From Synechococcus sp. CBW1108 (lineage in GTDB: Bacteria > Cyanobacteriota > Cyanobacteriia > PCC-6307 > Cyanobiaceae): a stretch of 64,000 nt of DNA. The position numbers and the translations under genes are program-made. The notes below the pieces were generated by a model. That model ran no database searches. It saw only the letters and a program-made list of their open reading frames with translations, and was not told where the DNA came from. The stretch lies in NCBI RefSeq assembly GCF_015840335.1, contig NZ_CP060395.1:1240001-1304000 (forward strand). The letters run 5' to 3'. How positions within the stretch are numbered: position 1 is the first letter of the stretch; each line of letters starts with the position of its first letter. Shown piece after piece: positions 1-40,398 of this stretch.

Positions 1-1
1 A

Positions 2-106
2 ATTGCGAAGGTTGCCAGAGAACCCATCTCTAATACGGCATTAATTTTATCGCGTGGCTTCGGAGGCCAGAACAGCGCATTGATCATCCGGGCAAGCAGC
101 CGATGA
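2..106 (+). CDS. Beta-ketoacyl-ACP synthase, C-terminal fragment (5' end outside window)
   Basis: The window opens inside a reading frame whose last 34 residues end in ILSRGFGGQNSALIIRASSR. The Gly-Phe-Gly-Gly-x-Asn signature followed by a short hydrophobic strand is the usual end of condensing enzymes of the FabF/KAS II type, which extend acyl-ACP chains with malonyl-ACP. The stop codon lies 11 bp before the next start, so the gene probably shares a transcript with the AcpS-acyltransferase fusion that follows. The catalytic Cys-His-His region lies outside the window, so neither activity nor subtype can be judged. Confidence 0.7.
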   Translation: MAKVAREPISNTALILSRGFGGQNSALIIRASSR

Positions 107-117
107 GATCATGAATA

Positions 118-1314
118 ATGCCTAATAGATACAAATGTGGTGTTGACCATGTAGATATCGCCCGAGTGCGGCAGCTGGTGGATCATTCATCTAATGAAGA
201 TCTCAAGGGAATCTTTAGCCAACAGGAACTCGATTATGCGGGCAAATCAAAGAGCCGCTATGGGCGCCTAGCCGCTCGCTTTGCCGCGAAGGAAGCTTGC
301 CTCAAGCTATTTCCGCTGGAAACGGCAACCGCAGCCATTGATCTCTCTGATTTTTCAGTAGAGAATGATGGCTACGGGGCCCCCTTTATATGCCTATCGC
401 CAAGGGCAAACGCCCTGCTGAATTTGTATGGATTTGAGCAGATCTCAATCAGCCTGAGTCACACCAAAGCCCACGCTGCGGCCACGGCAATAGCATCAAG
501 CAAAGACTTTAAAGCCCCCCTGATCGGCAGATTGGCCTATCGGCTTCTACCCATCAGACGAAAGCTGGTGCTGGCCAATCTTGAAAGGGTCTATGGCAGA
601 ACACTTAGCAAATCTCAGATTAAATCCATAGCCCAGGCCCACTATGCCCATTTCATTAGAATCGGCATCGAGTTCATCCAGTTTCAGTTTCTATCCCAAG
701 CCCAGCGGATGGCCCAGGCGAGGGTAGAAAATGCCGACCTGATCGGCGCCGCCCTTAGCAAGGGCCAGGGGGCCATCATCCTGACTGGCCATTTTGGTAA
801 CTTCACTACAGCCATTGCGGCCGGAGTTACCAACTTTCCTGAAGCCAGGGGACGTTTTTACTTTGTGCGCAGACCGTTGCAGCCGGCTTGGTTCGAGGCC
901 CTGATTAATAAACAATTTGAAAAATCCGGTTTCAAGAGCCTGCCAAAAACAGGGTCGATGGAAGCAATCATGAACTGCCTAGAGGCGGGCCATGCGGTTG
1001 TCTTCCCCTTCGACCAACACGCTGGCGGCAAGAGCAGCATCCTGGTTGACTTCCTTGGCCACCCGGCCGGAACCTTTCGCAGCCTCGCCCTGATTGCGAT
1101 TGCTTCAGGCGCCCCAGTAATTCCAGCATCAAGCTGGAGGGACGAAAATGGCAACCACGTATTGCGGTTTGAGGAACCCTTACAACTGATTGAATCGACC
1201 AGTGCAAAGGAAGAGATCCGGCTCAATACACGCCTTTTCAATGCGAGCCTGGAGCAAATGGTGCTGCGTCACCCGGATCAGTGGTGGTGGGTTCACCGGC
1301 GCTGGCGCAACTGA
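118..1314 (+). CDS. Fusion of AcpS-type phosphopantetheinyl transferase and LpxL-like acyltransferase
   Basis: Residues 1-125 read as a holo-ACP synthase: GVDHVDIARV (Asp10), RFAAKEA (Glu59) and SLSHTKAHAA (His115) match the Mg/CoA-binding signatures of enzymes that load 4'-phosphopantetheine onto acyl carrier proteins. Residues 135-398 resemble the LpxL/HtrB lysophospholipid acyltransferase family, with RRKLVLANLERVYG, TGHFGNFT, DQHAGG and a C-terminal WWWVHRRWR. The family's catalytic HX4D/E motif is altered: His225 is followed five residues later by Thr230 instead of an acidic residue, so the acyltransferase half may be inactive or changed. The gene follows a ketoacyl synthase end, which suggests a dedicated acyl-ACP pathway. 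It is AT-richer than most of the window. Confidence 0.8.
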   Translation: MPNRYKCGVDHVDIARVRQLVDHSSNEDLKGIFSQQELDYAGKSKSRYGRLAARFAAKEACLKLFPLETATAAIDLSDFSVENDGYGAPFICLSPRANALLNLYGFEQISISLSHTKAHAAATAIASSKDFKAPLIGRLAYRLLPIRRKLVLANLERVYGRTLSKSQIKSIAQAHYAHFIRIGIEFIQFQFLSQAQRMAQARVENADLIGAALSKGQGAIILTGHFGNFTTAIAAGVTNFPEARGRFYFVRRPLQPAWFEALINKQFEKSGFKSLPKTGSMEAIMNCLEAGHAVVFPFDQHAGGKSSILVDFLGHPAGTFRSLALIAIASGAPVIPASSWRDENGNHVLRFEEPLQLIESTSAKEEIRLNTRLFNASLEQMVLRHPDQWWWVHRRWRN

Positions 1315-1690: not shown

Positions 1691-2333
1691 ATGGAGATCA
1701 CCCTGGTGGGTAGCGGCCTGTTGGGCACGGCGATCGGCGAACGGTTGCTGGGCCGGGGCTACCGACTCCACGTGTGGAACCGGCGGCCGGAGCGTGCCCT
1801 GCCGGGGCTGTGGCCGCGGGCGAGCTCGTGATCACCGTGCTAGGTGACGGCCCCATCCCCGCTGAGGTGCTGCTCAACCAGGCCGGCACCGCCCTCCCGG
1901 GGCGGCTGGTGCTACAGATGGCGACCATCGCGCCGGCCGAAAGCCGCGACCTGGCGATCGCCCTGCAGCAACGCAGTGCCCGCTATCTGGGAACCCCCGT
2001 GCTGGGGAGCCGGCCGATCTCGAACGGGCCCGGCCGGTGTTCATGGCCCTCGGAGGCGAACCGCGCCATCTCGGACATGTCGGAGCTGCCCTGCACACCA
2101 AGCTGGCCCTCAACCAGCTGATCGCCAGCCTCACCCACAGCTTCAGCCTGGCCCTGCACGCGGTGCAGCAGGCCGGCGTGGAGGTGGAAACCTTCATGGC
2201 AATCCTGCGCGAAAGCGCCCTCTACGCCCCCACCCTCGACAAAAAACTGGCCAAGGAACTGGCCGACGACCCATCAACAAAGCGTGAAAAGCGGAAGAAC
2301 CGTAACGATATTAATCGAACCAAGGTTTCCTAG
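1691..2333 (+). pseudogene. Broken NAD(P)-dependent 6PGDH/3-hydroxyisobutyrate dehydrogenase-like gene
   Basis: The sequence starts as a Rossmann dinucleotide-binding domain (MEITLVGSGLLGTAIGERLL) at 1691, continues in a second frame from about 1800 (GELVITVLGDGPIPAEVLL) and in a third from about 2030 (LHTKLALNQLIASLTHSFSL). Together these give the order expected for a 3-hydroxyacid dehydrogenase of the 6-phosphogluconate dehydrogenase superfamily. Two frame changes, an apparent internal deletion after the first strand-helix-strand, and loss of the C-terminal third mean that no functional enzyme can be made. The third frame runs into unrelated basic residues and stops at 2333. Confidence 0.75.
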
Positions 2334-2400
2334 CAAAAAAGCATTCTTCAGCCATCAAGCTGTCTCTTTGCCCAACCCAAATCAATAGATATCCCTAGCG

Positions 2401-4089
2401 ATGAACAGACTCCGTCAAATCCGCAAAATCTGGATTTTACTGGCTCTATGCCTGGCCCTCTATCTTCCTGGCCTCTCCAGGCTGCCCGCCACTGACCGCG
2501 ATGAGTCGCGCTATATGCAAGCAACCCATCAGATGGTTGAAAGTGGCGATTTCATCGACATACGATTCCAGGACAATGCCCGCCACAAGAAACCTGTGGG
2601 CATCTACTGGCTGCAAGCCGGAGTCAGTAAGGCTGCGCAATTTATCGGTATATCCCCAACAGAACGCGCCTCTTACCGGGCCGTTTCAGCCATCGGTGCA
2701 ACTGGCGCCGTGCTGGCACTTTTCCTGGGATTCAGGAGGTTGATGGGTGAGCACGATGCCCTAATTTCCGCTGTTTTTCTATCCGCCACGCTCCTGCTCA
2801 GCGTGGAAGCACATCTGGCCAAAACCGACGCGATGCAGTTAGCCGCGATAGTGACGATGCAAGTTGGCCTGGCCCGCTTGTATTGCGTCGGCAACACAAA
2901 TGGATCGTGGCAAGCTCGCCTGCTTTTCTGGCTAGGTCTGAGCCTGGGAATACTGATCAAGGGACCAGTTGCCCCCGCAATCGCAGCCATGACCTTAGCG
3001 TGGATCTGCTGGACCGAAAGAAGCTTCTGGCCCCTGAGAGCGCTTCAACCTCTGCGCTGGCTTGCGTTGCCTGTGTTGATCGTTGGGCCATGGCTACTAA
3101 GTATTCAAAGCCTCAGTGAAGGCCAGTTTGTGCAGGACTCTATTGGGCGCGATTTTCTCGCAAAGATTCTCGAGGCCCAGGAGTCCCATGGAGCCCCCCC
3201 TGGCACCTATCTGCTGGTGACCCCAATCCTGCTCTGGCCCGTTTCCTGGCTTCTGATTCCCAAGGCCTGGCTAGGGCTCCAAAGCATCGAGGAGAGAAAT
3301 CCACGCCTAACAACATTTGCTATCGCGTGGCTTGTGCCTTCCTGGCTGTTATTTGAAATCATGCCAACCAAACTGCCCCACTATGTGCTGCCACTGATAC
3401 CAGCACTATGCCTACTTGGGGGAATCGGATTCAGCCAGAGTAGAGACCAGCAACAAACAGCGCTGGCGGCATCAAAGTGGCCGCAGAAAATTGGCTGGGC
3501 GGCCTGGATTTTTACAGGCTTGATTATCGTGGCAGGCCTCCCTGCGGTATCGATCTGGTCCTCTGGCAGGATTTCAACACCAGCTTTCCTCGTTAGCCTG
3601 CTCGGGATCGCGACCATTGCTCTTGCTCCCCGGCTGAAGAACGATGGACAGAGATTACTGGCATCAACGGCAGCAGCCGTGATCATCTTCGGCTTAATCT
3701 TTGAGCTCGCTCTTCCCCAACTAAAATCACTATGGCCAGCCGAAATAATGCGAAAGATTATTGACAGTCACGGCCTTGCCAGCGTACCAGTAGCTATCAC
3801 CGGGTACCACGAACCCAGTGTCGTTTTCAATCTGGGGACCGACACCAAGCTGACAGATATAAATGGGGTGGTCAGCCATGTATCCAGCAACCCTGAGACG
3901 ATTGCCATCGTGCCATTGGAGCAGGCCGATGAATTGCAGCGGCAACTCTCTCAGGAGGTCAGACTCAACACTTTTGGGCAAATTAACGGCTTCAATTACT
4001 CAAAGGGCAAAGCCGTTAACTTGGCGCTAATACACACTATTAGGGCTCCTGAATTGAAACCAATCCCCGCCCCGCCGCTGATAGATTAG
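2401..4089 (+). CDS. Family 39 (ArnT-like) polyprenyl-sugar glycosyltransferase
   Basis: This is a 562-residue membrane protein with many hydrophobic segments. The N-terminal loop ATDRDESRYMQA carries the acidic pair of the ArnT/PMT fold, which moves sugars from undecaprenyl-phosphate to lipid A or another acceptor on the periplasmic face. The loop KKPVGIYWLQAG is also typical. Length matches ArnT-like transferases (about 550). It lies between two pseudogenes and is itself intact. No aminoarabinose synthesis genes are in view, so the sugar and acceptor are unknown. The codon and base composition are AT-richer than the housekeeping genes. Confidence 0.8.
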   Translation: MNRLRQIRKIWILLALCLALYLPGLSRLPATDRDESRYMQATHQMVESGDFIDIRFQDNARHKKPVGIYWLQAGVSKAAQFIGISPTERASYRAVSAIGATGAVLALFLGFRRLMGEHDALISAVFLSATLLLSVEAHLAKTDAMQLAAIVTMQVGLARLYCVGNTNGSWQARLLFWLGLSLGILIKGPVAPAIAAMTLAWICWTERSFWPLRALQPLRWLALPVLIVGPWLLSIQSLSEGQFVQDSIGRDFLAKILEAQESHGAPPGTYLLVTPILLWPVSWLLIPKAWLGLQSIEERNPRLTTFAIAWLVPSWLLFEIMPTKLPHYVLPLIPALCLLGGIGFSQSRDQQQTALAASKWPQKIGWAAWIFTGLIIVAGLPAVSIWSSGRISTPAFLVSLLGIATIALAPRLKNDGQRLLASTAAAVIIFGLIFELALPQLKSLWPAEIMRKIIDSHGLASVPVAITGYHEPSVVFNLGTDTKLTDINGVVSHVSSNPETIAIVPLEQADELQRQLSQEVRLNTFGQINGFNYSKGKAVNLALIHTIRAPELKPIPAPPLID

Positions 4090-4129
4090 ACTCGGATCAT
4101 ACGAGACTCCGGATCAGGAAAGCTCAGCC

Positions 4130-4755
4130 ATGTCCACAACCTTCAGCTTCCCCTCACGCCAATTTTGTCCCAGTCCACCCTGTGCGGCCACATCGCGATT
4201 GTGGCCATAATTTTATGGTTGGTGGGCTGCCTGGCGCTGCTGGTCGACGTGCCCCTCGCCGTCTGGATGGCAGATAAACCCCTACACAAGAAAATCTCTC
4301 GCATCCTGCATCTCGCCGAGTTTGCGGCCATGGCACCGGGGCAGCAATGATTCTGATTGCAGCCCTGGGATGCAGCAGGCTCAACTGGAGCCGTCAGGTG
4401 GAACGAAGCCTGGCCTGGCGGTTGATTGGCGGCACTTTCCTCGGCTCCCTTGTGGTTGATGTGCTGAAGCTCCTTATCCCCCGCGTCAGGCCTCGGGTTG
4501 CCCAGCTGGAGAATGCCGGCGCAGTGCTCGATACTTTCGGGCGACAGCTGCTGGAGGCTGGCGATCACAGCCGATCAGCATTGATGAGCTTTCCATCAGG
4601 GCATGCCGCGGTAGCGGATCAGCAGCAGTAGCCACTATCTCAGCGATATCTGCTTCGGTGCCGCCTTTGGATTGGCAGGGGCACTGCTTTGCATACCCAG
4701 AACGGCGCGCTCAGCCGCCGCTCCTGCTTCCGAATTGGGTTCAGCAGAGGAGTAG
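4130..4755 (+). pseudogene. Broken PAP2 superfamily phosphatase
   Basis: Three frames together carry the three PAP2 phosphatase motifs. An N-terminal membrane segment begins at 4165. From 4347 come KLLIPRVRPR (motif 1) and SFPSGHA (motif 2). From 4633 comes HYLSDICFGAAFG, which holds the His and Asp of motif 3, and that frame ends at 4755. Frame changes near 4345 and 4605-4632, with loss of the segment between motifs 2 and 3, disrupt it. An intact relative would dephosphorylate a lipid phosphate such as undecaprenyl pyrophosphate or phosphatidate, which fits the neighbouring polyprenyl-sugar transferase. Confidence 0.75.
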
Positions 4756-4952
4756 GAACGTTTCGCACGTCCTTGCAGGTAATTCGGCTATTACCCCTCT
4801 GATCGTTCTGCCGGTAGACGAGGTCGATCGCCTCAACAAGATCCAGCTCGGCACCCAGATCCAGCTGAAAAAACTCCAGGCACTGAAGGGCTTGGGCTTG
4901 GGCTTGACCATGCCCCTTGGGAGACATGCTTGCGGCAGGCGGCAAGATCATG

Positions 4953-7724
4953 TCAGCCCAACTCCCCCAGCCGCCTGCGGGCCAGGGCCGCCTGGGCTTC
5001 GGCTTCGGCCAGGTTTGCCTTGCACTCCAGCACCACCTCAGGCGGGGCCTTATCTGCAAAGTTGGGATTGGCGAGGCGACTCGCCAGGCCCTTGGTCTCC
5101 CTATCGGCCTTGGCGATGTCCTTCTCCAGCCGGCCGCGCAGGGCGTCGAGATCCACCAGGCCCTCGATAGGCAGCAGCACCTGCAGCTCACCACTCACGC
5201 CGGCCAGGGCCTTGGCGGCCGGAGCAGCTTCGGCCTGCTCGGGGCTGAGCGCCGCCACGCTCTCGGCTCGGGTGAGGGCCGTGATGTCAGAGCTGGCCTC
5301 CTGCAACAGGGCTGCCAGCTCAGCGCGACCAGTCACAAACGTCACCGGCGCGCTCTGGCTGGGCTTGAGCCCCGCCAAAGCCCGCAGGTTGCGCACCACC
5401 CGAATCGCCTCGATCAGCTCGGCAAACTGGGCCTCAAGCTGGTCGTCTAGAGCGGCCCGATCAAGCACCGGCCAGTGCTGCAAGGCCAGGAAGCTGCTCT
5501 CTGGCTGGCCAGTGAGGCCGTGCCAAAGCTCCTCACTCAGGTGCGGCATCAGCGGATGCAGCATCACCAGCAACTCGCCAAGCACCTTGGCCAGCACCTG
5601 GCGGGCGGTGCGCTGGTCGGCCAAAGCTGCTGGGCTCGGGTTTTCACCTGGGTTGAGCCGCCGCTTGATCAGCTCCACATACCAGTCGCAAACCTCATTC
5701 CAGGCGAACTCATAAAGCCCCTTGGCCGCCTCGCCCAGGCCGTAGTTGCCATAGCGCTCAGTCGTATCAAGATTGACGCGGGCCAGTCGCGAAAGGATCC
5801 AGCGGTCGGCCAGCTGCAGGGCCGCTGGATCCGGCTCACCCAGCGAGGCCGGCGTCTCGCCGCCCAGGTTCATCAAGGCGAAGCGGGTGGCGTTCCAGAG
5901 CTTGTTGGCGAAGTTGCGCGAGGCCTCCACCGTGGCGGAGGTGTCGGATTTGCGGTCGTAGTCGAGGCGGATGTCCTGACCGGCCCCCGCCACCTCGCGC
6001 ACTAAGGCAAAGCGCAGGGCATCGGCGCCATAACGATCAATCAGAAGCAGCGGGTCGATGCCGTTGCCAGCAGACTTGCTCATCTTGCGGTTCTGTTCAT
6101 CCCGCACCAGGCCGTGGATGTACACGTCTTTGAAGGGCATCTGGCCCGTAAAGGCGCCGGCCAGCATCGTCATCCGGGCCACCCAGAAAAAGATGATGTC
6201 AAAGCCCGTCACCAGCACGCTGGTGGGATACCAGCGGGCCAGGTCGGAGGCCTGCTCGTCCGGCCAGCCCAGGGTCGAGAAGGGCCAGAGGCCGCTCGAG
6301 AACCAGGTATCGAGGGCGTCGGGGTCCTGCTCGAGCAGCAGGGGGTGGGCGTGAGTGCCGCCGCCAAATTGGGCCCGGGCCTTCGCCATGGCTTCCGCCT
6401 CATCGCGCGCCACCACATAGGGCGTGTTGTCGGTAATCACACCGCCGGTTTCGCTCACCACAAACCAGGCGGGGATGCGGTGGCCCCACCACAGCTGGCG
6501 GGATATGCACCAGTCGCGGATGTCGGTGAGCCAGTCGCGATACACCTTGGCCCAGCGCTCCGGCACAAAGCGCGGATCTGGCCCGGCGGCAGCGGCCAGG
6601 GCCTCACGGCAACGGGCTGCCAGGGGCTCGGTTTTCACGAACCACTGGGTAGAAAGCAGCGGCTCCACCGGCACCTTGCCGCGATCGGAAAAGGGCACGC
6701 TGTGGCGGTAGGGCTCCACCCGAGCCAGGAACCCTTCTGCCTCCATGGCCGCCACCACGGCCTGGCGGGCCTCGAAGCGATCCAGGCCTGCAAAGCGGCC
6801 TGCCGCCTCATTCATGCTGCCGTCCTTGGCCATCACCGTGATCAGCGGCAGATCGTGGCGCTGGCCGATCGCGAAGTCGTTGGGGTCGTGGGCGGGGGTC
6901 ACCTTTACACAACCGGTGCCGAATTCGGCATCCACGTGGTCGTCGGCGACGATCGGGATCTGGCGACCCACCAGCGGCAGGGTGAGGGTCTGCCCCACCA
7001 GCGCCGAGTAGCGCGGGTCATTGGGGTTCACCGCCACGGCCGTGTCGCCCAGCAGGGTTTCGGGCCTAGTGGTGGCAACCTCGAGGAAGCCGGCACCGCT
7101 GCTGAGCGGATAGCGAAAGTGCCAGAGGTGGCCGTCCACCTCCTGCATCTCCACCTCCAGATCACTCACCGCCGAACCGGAGGCGGGGCACCAGTTCACC
7201 AGGTATTCGCCCCGGTAGATCAGGCCCTGCTCGTGTAAGCGGTTAAAGGCCTCGATCACGGCGGTGCTGCAGCCGGAATCGAGGGTGAAGCGCTCCCGCC
7301 GCCAGTCCACCGAGTAGCCCAGGCGGCGCAGCTGGCCCACGATCGTGCCGCCGCTGCCTGCCTTCCACTCCCAGGCCTTCTCGAGGAATGCCTTGCGGCC
7401 CTGATCTTCATTGCGCTTTCCTTCAGCCTTGAGCTGCTTCTCGAGGATCGTCTGCACAGCGATCGAGGCGTGGTCGGTGCCAGGCAGGCACAACACGTTT
7501 TTGCCCCGCAGGCGCTGGAAGCGCACGATCGTGTCGATCAGGGCCGTGTTGAAGGCGTGGCCCATGTGCAGGCTGCCGGTCACGTTCGGCGGCGGAATGA
7601 CGACGGAGAAGGGTTCACCCTGCGCAGCAGGATCCGGGTGGAAGGCTCCCGAGGTCTCCCAGGCCTGCTGCCAGCGGCTCTCGGTGCCCGCTGGGTCGTA
7701 GGTCTTGGGCAGGGCCTCGGTCAC
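4953..7724 (-). CDS. valS: Valyl-tRNA synthetase
   Basis: This class I aminoacyl-tRNA synthetase charges tRNA-Val with valine. The start of the enzyme ([17 protein letters not shown]), the HIGH-type motif ([13 protein letters not shown]), the CP1 editing domain, the KMSKS loop ([13 protein letters not shown]) and a C-terminal coiled coil appear in order. A GTG at 7724 gives about 923 residues, the usual family length; another GTG at 7748 would add eight residues. The same frame stays open upstream to 8123, but that part overlaps proX and has no synthetase character. The 184 bp between valS and proX hold no gene I recognise. Confidence 0.95.
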
Positions 7725-26321: not shown

Positions 26322-27053
26322 CTACCGATCAAACATGGCCTTGAGTGTCTGAATTAGACCACGCAATTCCTCGCTTGTAACTATGACACTCACGCCGGCT
26401 GCGCCAAGCTGATTGACACCTGCTTGGCCACTCTGCAAAGTTTCTCGCACCACAGGCGCTGTATCTTCGGTCTCCTTTTGAAGAGCCTTGGCCAGATCAG
26501 AAAAAAATCCCGCCCCTTGACGCATGGAACTCAATGTGATCGGGACATCACTGGCAAAGACCTTACCCGCATTGGCAATTGTTGCATCAAGCCGCATACG
26601 CGTTTGCGCCAGGCCTATCAACAATTCCCTTGTATCAAGTGCAGGATCGAGAGGAAGCTCAAGCGTTGAATCACTTGCCCGATTCAGCTCTTTAGGCTTC
26701 GTCTTAGATAAATCTGGCGTTATGGAAATAAAGGAATCCCCAATAAGCCCCTCCTGATCCACCCTCAAAACGCTGGATGGGCCGATAAAATTTGCATAGC
26801 TTGGGTCCACATCAAGTTTTCCAATTATACGGGCATCGTCTGCTATCGAGAGGGTCTTGAGCCGACCAACAGTCAGGCCAGACAATTTGACCTCCATGCC
26901 AGGGCTCAAGGATTTCGCCGATTTAGCCACCATGGTGATCCGCAATGGCCTTTGCCACCAGGAAATCCAGCCCTGCTCCAGGGCGAACGCCACCAATGTG
27001 GCGCCGAGGAGCACAAAGGTAATGGAGCTAAAAATCCAACTATCTCGCTTCAT
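26322..27053 (-). CDS. MCE/MlaD-family lipid-transport protein
   Basis: This 243-residue protein has an N-terminal membrane anchor (IFSSITFVLLGATLVAFAL) and one MCE domain: ITMVAKSAKSLSPGMEVKLS, then LTVGRLKTLSIADD and VDQEGLIGDSFISITPDL. A helical C-terminal part follows. MCE proteins form hexameric rings that carry phospholipids between membranes, powered by a permease and an ATPase. The permease-like gene lies immediately upstream in the same operon, but no ATPase gene is present here. Base composition is AT-richer than the flanking housekeeping genes. Confidence 0.85.
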   Translation of the reverse strand: MKRDSWIFSSITFVLLGATLVAFALEQGWISWWQRPLRITMVAKSAKSLSPGMEVKLSGLTVGRLKTLSIADDARIIGKLDVDPSYANFIGPSSVLRVDQEGLIGDSFISITPDLSKTKPKELNRASDSTLELPLDPALDTRELLIGLAQTRMRLDATIANAGKVFASDVPITLSSMRQGAGFFSDLAKALQKETEDTAPVVRETLQSGQAGVNQLGAAGVSVIVTSEELRGLIQTLKAMFDR

Positions 27054-27065
27054 TCCACCAGCTTT

Positions 27066-27659
27066 TTAGAAAATCATTTGGCGCACAAAGATCCAAGCAA
27101 TTTTTGTCGCCATCACAGCAGCAAAGACATGGACCGTCACCGAGCTAATCACCAGGGCAATGGGCTTACCCTTGCCGATGCTAGACCTAGACTCTATCAA
27201 GGCCCATGTACTTGCGATCATGACATAAACACTTGCCTCCAAGCTTGAAAGGGCCAAGTCTGCGGCCCTTACGGCAGCAAAAATAAGCCGGAATTCACCA
27301 ATCACATCCTGACGAGAACTAATTAATACTCCAGCAACAACGGAGGCCAAAAGAAAATAAAAGTTCAAAATAGCGCCAGTAACCGCCGCGGGCACAACGA
27401 CCCTTAGCCAAGCAGCACCAATCCCGAGCCGATAAAAACGAACCCAATGGGGGCTCAACCTCATGGTGATCAGCAGCGCACAGGCAATCGGCCCTGCCAG
27501 ATGCAGCGATGCATTAACCAATAAATGGAGCCCAAACGCATTTGACTGGTGTAGCTTTTCGGCAATATATACACTTCCAGCACCCACAAATAGGCCGGCT
27601 AAAATTGCCTCATCGGCGCAGTGCTTACCATCTCTCTCGATAGCTCCCAGCAGGGCCAT
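27066..27659 (-). CDS. Divergent MlaE-like ABC permease
   Basis: This is a hydrophobic protein whose order of segments follows MlaE/YrbE: LAGLFVGAGSVYIAEKLH, a middle LAGPIACALLITMRLSPHW (where MlaE has REL-GP-x-L-TALL), and a C-terminal EASVYVMIASTWALIESR. It ends 12 bp before the MCE gene start. The conserved RELGP and EQI(D/E)AL coupling elements are poorly preserved. The start is uncertain: ATG 27659 gives 197 residues, two GTGs lie 15 and 30 bp upstream in a repeat, and the frame is open to 27830. MlaE proteins are usually about 250 residues, so the N-terminus may be shortened. Confidence 0.65.
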   Translation of the reverse strand: MALLGAIERDGKHCADEAILAGLFVGAGSVYIAEKLHQSNAFGLHLLVNASLHLAGPIACALLITMRLSPHWVRFYRLGIGAAWLRVVVPAAVTGAILNFYFLLASVVAGVLISSRQDVIGEFRLIFAAVRAADLALSSLEASVYVMIASTWALIESRSSIGKGKPIALVISSVTVHVFAAVMATKIAWIFVRQMIF

Positions 27660-27695
27660 AAGCCGCTTGATCACAAGCCTCTTGATCACAAACCT
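27657..27695. repeat. 15-bp tandem repeat, about 2.6 copies
   Basis: Units CATAAGCCGCTTGAT, CACAAGCCTCTTGAT and a partial CACAAACCT follow each other without gaps. On the minus strand they read Val-Ile-Lys-Arg-Leu twice, directly ahead of the ATG proposed for the permease gene, and each full unit offers a GTG codon in that frame. The copy number therefore changes the possible N-terminus by five residues per unit. Confidence 0.85.
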
Positions 27696-27859
27696 AAATT
27701 TCCCGTAAGCGTTCAGGTGTCGCGGTGCCAGCACGTCTATTTCCAGGGACAGCTCAGCCGCCTGACGGGAACGCCGGTGGCCTGCGGAACAACAAAGCTC
27801 AACACAGGGCTGCCAGGCCCCACCGACCAACTAAAACGGAATTATTACGCATAAGCCCC

Positions 27860-28363
27860 ATGGCCTCCAATCCAGCCGCTCCCACCGGCGCCCCCCCGAT
27901 CGACATCGGCATCCCGGAAGCCCAGCGCCTCCAGATCGCCGCGGGGCTGGGCCAGGTGCTGGCCGACAGCACCGTGCTGTACGCCAAGACCCACGGCTTC
28001 CACTGGAACGTGACCGGGCCGATGTTCAACACCCTGCACCTGATGTTCATGGAGCAGTACACCGAACTCTGGATGGCCTTAGACGCCATCGCCGAGCGCA
28101 TCCGCGCCCTTGGCTGCCCAGCCCCCTACGGCGGCGCCACCTATGCGGGCATCTCCTCAATTCCCGAAACTGCAGGCGTGCCCGGTGCCCTGGCCATGGT
28201 GCGCGAGCTGGTGGAGGGCCACGAAGCGGTGGCCCGCACGATCCGCAGCGTGTTTGCCACCGCCGATGGCGCCAACGACCAGCCCACCGCCGACCTGCTC
28301 ACCCAGCGGCTGCAGATCCACGAGAAGACCGCCTGGATGCTGCGCAGCCTGCTGGAGGCCTGA
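27860..28363 (+). CDS. dps: Dps-family ferritin-like DNA-protection protein
   Basis: This 167-residue four-helix ferritin-like protein forms dodecamers that oxidise and store iron and protect DNA from peroxide. The inter-subunit ferroxidase ligands are visible in KTHGFHWNVTGPMFNTLHLM (two His) and ALDAIAERIRALG (Asp and Glu). The N-terminal 15 residues are Ala/Pro-rich with no clear DNA-binding lysines. The ATG at 27860 fits the family length. It is divergent from the MCE operon and 58 bp before pyrG. Confidence 0.92.
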   Translation: MASNPAAPTGAPPIDIGIPEAQRLQIAAGLGQVLADSTVLYAKTHGFHWNVTGPMFNTLHLMFMEQYTELWMALDAIAERIRALGCPAPYGGATYAGISSIPETAGVPGALAMVRELVEGHEAVARTIRSVFATADGANDQPTADLLTQRLQIHEKTAWMLRSLLEA

Positions 28364-37858: not shown

Positions 37859-39016
37859 TCAGGCCTCCACCATGCGTCCCTTTTGCGGGAACAGGCCTGC
37901 AGGCCTGAACTGCAGGAAGACGACGATCAGCACGAACACCAGCACCTTTGCCATCGATGTGGTGGCAAAAAAGGTGATCGTCTCGTTCAGGCCGGCGGGC
38001 ATCGTCGGCCAAAGCAACAGGAGGGAACCAGAGCCGAGCACATAGCTCAAGATGCCGATGCCGAGGGCCGCCACCACGGTGCCGAGCAGCTTGCCGACCC
38101 CACCGAGTACCACGACCATGAAGCAATCAACGATGTAATTACCGCCAAGGTTTGGGCCCACCGAACCCAGCAGGGTGACGGCAACACCGGCCACCCCGGC
38201 CAGCCCCGAGCCAACCAGAAAGGTGAGGGCGTCGACCTTTTGGGTGGGGATGCCAAGGCAACTGCTCATCGGCCTGTTCTGGGTGACGGCCCGAATGCGG
38301 ATACCCCAAACACTCTTCTGCAGGAACCAGTTCACCGCCACAAGGGCAATTGCCGTCAGCGCGATGATGAACAGACGGCCGGTGGGCATTGTCACCCCCG
38401 CCAAATCGATCGAACCACGCAGCCACTGAGGCGCCGTGACATCAATGTTGCGAGCACTGAACCAAGGCTGATCCAGGGCTCTCACGCTGCCAAGGGCCGA
38501 AGCCAGCCCAATACCCAGAACGCCGGCCAACACCCAGCCGCCAACGCCAAGCAGCGGCGCCCAACGCCTCTGCCACCAGATCTGGGGGGTGAGACGCGGC
38601 GCGAACATCCCCAGCAACACCGCCAGCAGCAAGCCGAGAAAGAAGGCCGTGGAAACTGAACGCACGAACTGCTGCAGGATCAGGCTGACGCCCCAGGTGG
38701 CCAGCAAGGTTTCCAGGGGACGGCCGTAGAGGCGCCTAATCACCGTCTTCTCGAGAAGCAGCCCGGCCAAGCCACTAACCAGGAAGGCGATCGGTATCGC
38801 AATCAGTAAATAGATGGGGAAGAGGCCGGAAAGGGGGCCGTTCTTGAGCAGGTTCTGCACCACGAAGGTGGTGTAGGCGCCGAGCATCATCAACTCCCCA
38901 TGGGCCATGTTGATGACACCCATCAGGCCGAAGACCACAGCGAGGCCAAGCGCCGCCAGCATCAGCACCGAGCCGATCGCCAGCCCGTTGAAGAGCGTGT
39001 CGTAAAGAGCTGTCAT
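37859..39016 (-). CDS. urtB: Urea ABC transporter, permease UrtB
   Basis: This LivH-like membrane permease has NGLAIGSVLMLAALGLAVVF and GLMGVINMAHGELMMLGAYT near the N-terminus and GIRIRAVTQNRPMSSCLGIP in the coupling loop. The ATG at 39016 gives 385 residues and starts directly at the conserved LYDTLFNG; the frame is open nine codons further. The message segment between urtA and urtB contains a terminator-like hairpin, so urtB may be expressed at a lower level than urtA. Confidence 0.95.
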   Translation of the reverse strand: MTALYDTLFNGLAIGSVLMLAALGLAVVFGLMGVINMAHGELMMLGAYTTFVVQNLLKNGPLSGLFPIYLLIAIPIAFLVSGLAGLLLEKTVIRRLYGRPLETLLATWGVSLILQQFVRSVSTAFFLGLLLAVLLGMFAPRLTPQIWWQRRWAPLLGVGGWVLAGVLGIGLASALGSVRALDQPWFSARNIDVTAPQWLRGSIDLAGVTMPTGRLFIIALTAIALVAVNWFLQKSVWGIRIRAVTQNRPMSSCLGIPTQKVDALTFLVGSGLAGVAGVAVTLLGSVGPNLGGNYIVDCFMVVVLGGVGKLLGTVVAALGIGILSYVLGSGSLLLLWPTMPAGLNETITFFATTSMAKVLVFVLIVVFLQFRPAGLFPQKGRMVEA

Positions 39017-39040
39017 GGAGTCCCGAAGGGGACAAAGGAA

Positions 39041-39082
39041 CAAAAATAAAAAAGGGGAAGAAGACTAAATGTCTCCCCCCCC
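39041..39082 (-). terminator. Rho-independent-type terminator between urtA and urtB
   Basis: On the minus strand, GGGGGGGGAGAC (39082-39071), loop ATTTA and GTCTTCTTCCCC (39065-39054) form a 12-bp stem with three G-U pairs, followed by TTTTTTATTTTTG. It begins 24 bp after the urtA stop and ends before the urtB start. This is the form of an intrinsic terminator and probably lets only part of the transcripts continue into urtBCDE. Confidence 0.8.
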
Positions 39083-39105
39083 TGCAGCTAATCAAAGTGG
39101 GCTGA

Positions 39106-40398
39106 TCACATCTTGAACTTGCCAGCGTCAGGACGATCCTGCGTCCAATCGCAGGTGTAGCCCTTGGTTTCGGGAACGAACTGGTTCCAGGCAATCGGCT
39201 TGAGCACACCCTTATCTTCGATGATCTTGAACATGCCGTCCTTTTGGACCTCACCAATCATCACCAGCTCGGTGGTGTGATGGTTGGGCTGCACCTCGAT
39301 CTTGCCCTGGGGGGCATCGAAAGTAACCCCGATTAGCGATTTGCGCACGGCGCTGTTGTCAACGCTATTGGCCTTCTCCGCTCCAGCGGCCCAGAGATAG
39401 ATCATGTTGTAGGCAGATTCAGCCGGGTCGTTGGTGACTCGGTTTTCGCCATATTTGGCCTTGAAGTTCTTGGTGAACTCCTTGGAAGCTGGTGTATCCA
39501 GGCTCTGGAAGAAATTCCAGGCCGCATAGGTGCCTTCCAGGTACTCAGGGCCGATTGCCGCAACCTCCTCCTCAGCAATTGAGAAGCTCATGATCGCGTA
39601 GCCGTTGGCAGGGGTGATGCCAGCAGCCTTCATCTGCTTGAAGAAGGCAACGTTGCTATCGCCATTAAGGGTGTTGACGATCACGCCACCCTTGGGCAGG
39701 GCCTGCTTGATCTTGGCAATGATCGGAGCCACCTCAGTGTTGCCAAGTGGCAGGTAGTCCTCACCCACCAGGTTGCCGCCCTCAACCTTGAGCTGCTCCT
39801 TCATGATCGTGTTCGCGGTGCGCGGATACACGTAGTCGGAGCCCACTAGGAAGAAGTCCTTGCCCTTGTTCTTCAGCAGCCAGGAGACCGCGGGTTCCGC
39901 CTGCTGATTGGGGGTAGCACCGCTGTAGAAAATGTTCTTGGAGCACTCCTGACCTTCGTATTGGATCGGATAGAAGAGGAAGTGATCCTTGGCTTCAAAC
40001 ACCGGCAGCATCGCCTTGCGGCTAGCTGAGGTCCAGCCACCAAACACCACAGCCACCTGATCCTGATCGATCAGTTTTTTGGCTTTCTCAGCGAAGGTGG
40101 GCCAGTCAGAGGCACCATCTTCTTCGACGGGAACAATCTTCAGCTTTTTGCCCTCGATGGTGATCCCGCCCTTGGCGTTGATCTCCTCGATCGCCATCAA
40201 CTCGGCTTCAGCCACCGTGTTTTCGGAGATGGCCATGGTGCCTGAGCGGGAATGCAAAATCCCCACCTTCACTTCACCATCAAAATCGCCAGAGGCTTTT
40301 TCGCCGCCGCCGCAGGCCACGAGCGAAAGGCTGGCTGCCATCGCCGTAGCGCCAGCGACGTAACGCATGGTGGTTTTGCGCATCAGGGAAGACTTCAT
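39106..40398 (-). CDS. urtA: Urea ABC transporter, substrate-binding protein UrtA
   Basis: This is the periplasmic urea-binding protein. The ATG at 40398 has AGGAG eight bases upstream and gives about 430 residues. The N-terminus is a lipoprotein signal (AASLSLVACGGG, lipobox Cys). The mature part shows the UrtA features VKVGILHSRSGTMAISE, VFGGWTSASRKAMLPVFE and GQECSKNIFYSGATPNQQ. The frame stays open 64 codons further upstream across the promoter, which is rejected. A probable NtcA promoter sits 55-97 bp upstream of the start. Confidence 0.96.
   Translation of the reverse strand: MKSSLMRKTTMRYVAGATAMAASLSLVACGGGEKASGDFDGEVKVGILHSRSGTMAISENTVAEAELMAIEEINAKGGITIEGKKLKIVPVEEDGASDWPTFAEKAKKLIDQDQVAVVFGGWTSASRKAMLPVFEAKDHFLFYPIQYEGQECSKNIFYSGATPNQQAEPAVSWLLKNKGKDFFLVGSDYVYPRTANTIMKEQLKVEGGNLVGEDYLPLGNTEVAPIIAKIKQALPKGGVIVNTLNGDSNVAFFKQMKAAGITPANGYAIMSFSIAEEEVAAIGPEYLEGTYAAWNFFQSLDTPASKEFTKNFKAKYGENRVTNDPAESAYNMIYLWAAGAEKANSVDNSAVRKSLIGVTFDAPQGKIEVQPNHHTTELVMIGEVQKDGMFKIIEDKGVLKPIAWNQFVPETKGYTCDWTQDRPDAGKFKM

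Follow-up and report, generated by a model that had tools for sequence, protein, structure and literature searches.

A single polypeptide joining AcpS to an LpxL-type acyltransferase without the HX4D/E acid, a candidate enzyme for loading and unloading a dedicated acyl carrier protein in picocyanobacteria

The last gene of a seven-gene fatty acid operon of a picocyanobacterium encodes one protein of 398 aa in which a phosphopantetheinyl transferase (AcpS) is joined to an LpxL-type acyltransferase (LPLAT). We believe, slightly more than we doubt, that this protein is a two-ended enzyme of the acyl carrier protein (ACP), which would load a dedicated ACP and then catalytically unload the finished acyl chain from it onto a lipid. 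Although the acid of the HX4D/E motif is missing from the LPLAT half, this half is probably not dead, since the likely catalytic pair read from its sequence, H225 and D299, is intact. If this is right, the first and the last enzymes touching the carrier protein would be one polypeptide and a special fatty acid would be kept apart from the general pool. The window, that is, the whole stretch of 64,000 nucleotides analysed, corresponds to C1:1240001-1304000 of the source genome (G000, one contig), and the features dealt with here are the following:

1..106, + strand: 3' end of the Cys-less ketoacyl synthase (KS-beta, 426 aa; G000:C1:1238826-1240106; locus L024)
118..1314, + strand: AcpS-LPLAT fusion gene, 398 aa, an open frame with Pfam PF01648 and PF03279 above their cut-offs
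118..501, + strand: AcpS (phosphopantetheinyl transferase) domain, residues 1-128 (Pfam, NCBIfam)
502..1311, + strand: LpxL-type acyltransferase (LPLAT) domain, residues 129-398 (Pfam; Foldseek on a weak model)
790..792 (CAT), + strand: H225, predicted catalytic His of block 1, kept (His in 90/90 and 41/41 aligned rows)
805..807 (ACT), + strand: T230, place of the missing HX4D/E acid (T, T and A across the three fusions)
916..918, + strand: F267, equivalent by profile alignment of LpxM R159 and PatA R164, the Arg being also missing
1012..1014, + strand: D299, block-3 acid equivalent by alignment to LpxM D192 and PatA E200, kept (90/90, 41/41)

The union of an AcpS with an LpxL-like domain, put forward in the initial annotation of this DNA, was confirmed by Pfam in one uninterrupted frame. 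The ACPS profile (PF01648) matched residues 7-93 with 39.0 bits (cut-off 25) and Lip_A_acyltrans (PF03279) residues 136-397 with 122.2 bits (cut-off 22.3), the latter starting at profile position 41 of 295. These were the sole Pfam matches at E values up to 1, a search in which DUF374 gave none. The AcpS half narrowly missed the NCBIfam cut-off of TIGR00516 (acpS; 58.5 bits vs 59.8) and reached that of the broader TIGR00556 (53.2 bits vs 45.35); it contains D10 (GVD) and E59 (KEA), which we take to be the metal-site Asp and Glu of AcpS. The NCBIfam cut-offs for named lipid A acyltransferases were not reached by the LPLAT half, the best being NF006270 with 134 bits vs 248. An AlphaFold model of the fusion built from 4 sequences was weak (mean pLDDT 55.6, pTM 0.50) and served for the fold search only, in which the top Foldseek matches were LpxM (5knk, E 2.0e-11) and PatA (5f2z, E 2.1e-11). 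The motif reads G224-H225-F-G-N-F-T230, so that the Thr described at the place of the acid is indeed there; the predicted catalytic His and block-3 acid are present as H225 and D299. The equivalences of D299 and F267 come from profile alignment to solved chains, with residue numbers counted by hand.

The nearest named matches to the fusion were proteins of Synechococcus sp. CS-1331 (97% identity) and Synechococcus sp. GFB01 (74%). It was found in 2 of the 60 relatives searched and in 3 of the 400 family genomes (the window's genome, CS-1331 or G015, and GFB01 or G256). Of 386 genomes sampled across the phylum, only the window's own carried it. These samples overlap, and the total is three distinct genomes of two genera. 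The codon for position 230 is ACT (Thr) in the window, ACA (Thr) in CS-1331 and GCT (Ala) in GFB01. Since Thr is thus specified by another codon in CS-1331 and replaced by Ala in GFB01, a sequencing error hiding an Asp or Glu is unlikely, and an error or frameshift was discarded in view of the three genomes with their three codons. The possibility that Thr itself is kept among such fusions was borne out for CS-1331 and not for GFB01, the acid being missing in the three of them; a fusion with an intact HX4D/E acid was not seen among the three found in the family and phylum searches. Matches were present in 34 plasmid records, none covering 80% of the fusion protein, and two alignments run against viral contigs gave 12 and 9 pattern matches, none encoding a relative. 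No publication on an AcpS-LpxL fusion was found in a literature search which, leaving subscription journals mostly uncovered, is weak evidence.

The fusion with the altered position 230 is under purifying selection and both its halves are maintained. The dN/dS of the LPLAT half was 0.063 between the window and CS-1331, 0.128 between the window and GFB01 and 0.135 between CS-1331 and GFB01, within the range of the other genes of the operon. For the AcpS half it was 0.147 between the window and CS-1331 and 0.084 between the window and GFB01, this last comparison having synonymous sites near saturation and that of CS-1331 with GFB01 giving no value. Between the window and CS-1331, the dN of the LPLAT half (0.008) was lower than that of the AcpS half (0.028).

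The initial annotation had taken the acid of HX4D/E as the relay partner of the His, a premise which is weak because the structures of PatA (PMC4792965) and of A. baumannii LpxM (PMC6286764) contradict it. In mycobacterial PatA, the block-3 acid E200 lies 2.8 A from H126 and activity is abolished by both H126A and E200A, while the D131A mutant, altered in the HX4D Asp, retains 37% activity, D131 being assigned a structural role (PMC4792965). In the same way, H122 of LpxM bonds D192 and the HX4E acid, E127, is found at a distance of 7.6 A, paired with R159 (PMC6286764). In addition, LpxJ is an active late acyltransferase described as having neither HX4D/E nor the second positive residue, and its His-Asp dyad spans blocks 1 and 3 (PMC6148475). 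The Ala mutants of E. coli LpxL answer the question of the catalytic acid in the way opposite to those of PatA: the loss was about 3000-fold for E137 (HX4 acid), 170-fold for R169 and 15-fold for D200 (block-3 Asp), so by the rules of this enzyme the fusion would be badly crippled. Being a natural case in which the HX4 acid and the Arg were lost and the His and the block-3 Asp kept, the fusion makes the disputed catalytic acid of LpxL, LpxM and PatA testable.

The conservation of these positions was studied in 90 LPLATs of Desulfobacterota, a phylum in which 203 of 247 genomes gave a match. They were picked by hand instead of at random, as the 30 best matches, 40 just below these and 20 from the lower part of the listed matches. 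His at 225 and Asp at 299 were present in all 90, while 80 had Glu at position 230 and the other 10 had P, L, M, T or F there; Glu occupied this position in each of the 30 best matches, L125 for instance reading HFGNWEMM. Arg was found at position 267 in 79 of the 80 acid-bearing proteins vs 3 of the 10 acid-less ones (Fisher p 1e-7, a value which is not a true probability as the sequences are related). The 41 further rows comprised 35 stand-alone proteins of Cyanobacteriota, S. meliloti LpxXL, L112, L023 and the three fusions. Two antisense frames matching the profile (L009 901-2403 and L008 1612-2631) were left out of the analysis. H225 and D299 were again in all of them, that is, in 131 of the 131 scored rows. 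The acid occurs in each of the 35 stand-alone cyanobacterial proteins, and the Arg in 34 of them; positions 230 and 267 are E/K in S. meliloti LpxXL, E/R in L112, P/M in L023 and T/F, T/F and A/F in the fusions, where the Arg is absent in 3/3. The alignment suggests that the HX4 acid and the Arg tend to be lost jointly, although not in strict coupling, as 3 of the 10 acid-less Desulfobacterota proteins retain the Arg. The constancy of H225 and D299, the existence of acid-less PF03279 proteins outside the fusion and the activity reported for LpxJ argue against the earlier view that a domain without this acid would not transfer acyl groups. If this is right, PF03279 proteins should not be called dead for want of HX4D/E.

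The order of the operon is enoyl reductase, ketoreductase, ACP, dehydratase, ketoacyl synthase (KS), Cys-less KS and fusion, and it is the same in CS-1331 and GFB01; the five genes other than KS-beta and the fusion lie upstream of the window on the same strand as the fusion (L024). The enoyl reductase is FabL-like (NF005975, 353.3 bits vs cut-off 328) with YX6K present, the ketoreductase is of FabG type, the ACP has 143 aa and the dehydratase is a double-hotdog protein of 292 aa (L024). The KS carries its Cys (HTACASG) and KS-beta does not (NHGTSG); among the matches listed in a search of 386 genomes with KS-beta, the window's own aside, identity was at most 36%. The dedicated acyl-ACP pathway beside a ketoacyl synthase that had been anticipated is supported by the operon having its own ACP, AcpS and KS. 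Inspection by eye of the dehydratase (L024:12649-13527) indicated that the FabZ-type Glu region is kept in the first hotdog half (FFPQSLVAEAIGQ), and that the second half has the His region DHFPKKP with His in place of the expected Glu; the two halves may together make up one composite active site. Products of the aryl-polyene type are unlikely because the operon has an enoyl reductase.

The best-understood set of genes of similar make-up is the rhizobial acpXL-fabZXL-fabF2XL-fabF1XL-adh-lpxXL cluster, which serves the very-long-chain fatty acid of lipid A (PMC11901934). Both have a dedicated ACP, a dehydratase, a KS with a Cys-less KS and a terminal LpxL-type acyltransferase on one strand (L111). 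Unlike that cluster, the operon includes a FabL-type enoyl reductase, at its head, and a FabG-type ketoreductase, and it has no zinc dehydrogenase between KS-beta and the fusion; S. meliloti LpxXL reads HSGNFE, whereas in the fusion the HX4 acid is missing and the AcpS is fused on. Over 74 aa, the operon ACP and S. meliloti AcpXL are 39% identical. The KS shares 35% identity with FabF1XL and 41% with one cyanobacterial KS, from L096, and KS-beta 26% with FabF2XL, 28% with FabF1XL and 31-36% with cyanobacterial KS proteins. As neither is nearer to that cluster than to other cyanobacterial KS proteins, these identities do not establish descent from the acpXL-lpxXL cluster. By analogy, the operon resembles that cluster in parts and order and would work like it.

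With LpxL and LpxM the fusion shares the PF03279 match, the His, the block-3 Asp and a C-terminal WxHRRW. It differs from them in the loss of the HX4D/E acid and the block-2 Arg, in a shortened N-terminus with the AcpS in its place and in four residues (ARGR) inserted between block 1 and block 2. The relay from His to block-3 acid described for PatA may be likened to H225/D299, but PatA has the HX4D Asp and the Arg and the fusion has neither. LpxJ, which is similar to the fusion in being without HX4D/E and the second positive residue, belongs to another Pfam family (DUF374). The acid-less Desulfobacterota PF03279 proteins keep, like the fusion, the His and the block-3 Asp, and one of them, L225, reads HIGNFT. 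In the surroundings of L023, the sole such locus read, there was neither an AcpS half nor a KS operon, unlike in the fusion.

In the mechanism that we propose, the AcpS half would put phosphopantetheine on the operon's own ACP, on which KS/KS-beta, ketoreductase, dehydratase and enoyl reductase would extend the chain, presumably in successive steps. Once finished, the acyl chain would be moved by the LPLAT half to a lipid, with lipid A or a related glycolipid of the outer membrane as the most likely acceptor. For this the LPLAT half would use a putative His225-Asp299 relay from block 1 to block 3, the second ion pair of HX4 acid and Arg (T230, F267) having been dropped, as in LpxJ. Lipid A precursors are plausible, as LpxC was found in the 9 genomes tested out of 9, and the cyanobacterial lipid A pathway comprises lpxA, lpxC, lpxD and lpxB (PMC3087551). 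If the proposal is right, some picocyanobacteria of freshwater type should contain a long-chain lipid so far unrecorded. The literature search, in which subscription journals were mostly uncovered, likewise gave no paper describing such a lipid A operon in picocyanobacteria, which is again weak evidence of absence.

That the acceptor of an active LPLAT half is other than lipid A, such as a glycolipid or an envelope carbohydrate, has in our judgement a minor although appreciable chance. No lipid A gene lies within the operon, and PF03279 includes PatA, which acylates mannosides (PMC4792965). Moreover, a matching LPLAT appeared in just 26 of 400 family genomes, which would make secondary acylation of lipid A by PF03279 proteins optional there. 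On the other side, the acpXL-lpxXL operon serves lipid A (PMC11901934), and among 16 genomes of the genus the fusion is the sole PF03279 protein found in G000 and CS-1331, while 12 of the other 14 have a stand-alone one and G003 and G006 have none. The fusion looks as if it had taken over the job of the stand-alone enzyme, yet in GFB01 two stand-alone copies accompany the fusion; a replacement may therefore hold for two genomes and not for GFB01. In the latter, the two stand-alone LpxL genes are in tandem (L069:1482-2429 and 2581-3603).

Binding of acyl-ACP without transfer was the job suggested for the LPLAT half in the initial annotation; such a half might keep the carrier in place for the AcpS half or gauge the length of the chain. 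The pair of HX4 acid and Arg is gone in the three fusions, the conservation of the domain would be equally explained by binding, and this role keeps some chance because E. coli LpxL strongly needs both positions that the fusion lost. Nevertheless, H225, D299 and the C-terminal HPDQWWWVHRRW block are kept in all three fusions, a catalytic pair would be superfluous for a pure binder, and acid-less relatives without the AcpS half exist, which indicates that the loss of the acid is not a consequence of the fusion. As no finding points positively to it, we consider binding without transfer possible but unlikely and do not favour it. An even less probable idea is that the LPLAT half is an acyl-ACP reader gating the AcpS half, tuning the supply of holo-ACP to the length or amount of finished acyl-ACP, in which case H225 and D299 would serve to retain the thioester or to remove stalled chains by slow hydrolysis; if true, it would be the first such sensor built from a lipid A acyltransferase. 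Finally, a decaying remnant, to which the loss of two family residues could be attributed, is very hard to believe in view of a frame open in three genomes, dN/dS values of 0.06-0.14 and an LPLAT half more conserved than the AcpS half.

Concerning the origin of the LPLAT half, the fusions branched apart from their genera's stand-alone LpxL at 100/100 in the tree and fell at an unresolved fork that they share with sequences of Desulfobacterota, alphaproteobacteria and other classes. An origin from the genus's own LpxL was ruled out by this separate branch of stand-alone proteins, all of which read HLGCWD, and is also disfavoured by the better matches of Desulfobacterota LPLATs, whose best E was 1e-40 with the LPLAT half alone as the query, vs 4e-20 with the whole protein among the family genomes. 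Ten acid-less Desulfobacterota proteins and L023 formed one clade (84/85), with the fusions outside it in the best tree; consequently the acid was perhaps lost twice, a single clade of both groups not being rejected (p-AU 0.149). The members of this clade (within L185-L244, plus L023) show GNFP/L/M/T and GNLF with the His and block-3 Asp kept, and two acid-less proteins, L023 and L225, are carried by G740. No relatives of the KS operon were detected in the stretches, several of them short contigs, read near 20 Desulfobacterota LPLATs. Among ten stand-alone AcpS genes of other cyanobacteria, a KS was present in 2 of the 10 stretches and the operon in none. In the 16 genus genomes, there were two PF01648 proteins in G000 and CS-1331, one in 13 genomes and zero in G009; the second phosphopantetheinyl transferase of the first two genomes favours a dedicated pathway.

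The operon sits between DedA and valS in the three fusion genomes, and a 182-aa gene is also found there in the window's genome and CS-1331. The DedA-valS gap is about 60 bp in G002 and G008, and about 3.1 kb, with other genes inside, in G013. The GC content of the operon genes is 49.5-57.2% vs 65.7% for the window. A cassette acquired at one site is a possible explanation that fits, with loss in the other genomes as the alternative. Further low-GC stretches (50-58%) were located in the window at about 26401-28200 and 38401-40200. Long LPLAT frames of 615-746 aa were observed at L164:7381-9618, L107:7777-9621 and L108:7580-9568; their extra parts are not AcpS and gave no Pfam match at E 0.001. 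Downstream of the fusion, positions 2271-4956 of the window are absent from CS-1331. They contain the gene of an ArnT-like glycosyltransferase (2401-4089) together with what looks by eye like a broken frame of phosphatase type. This segment truncates a dehydrogenase-like gene with indels (about 1690-2290), whose copy in CS-1331 is an open frame.
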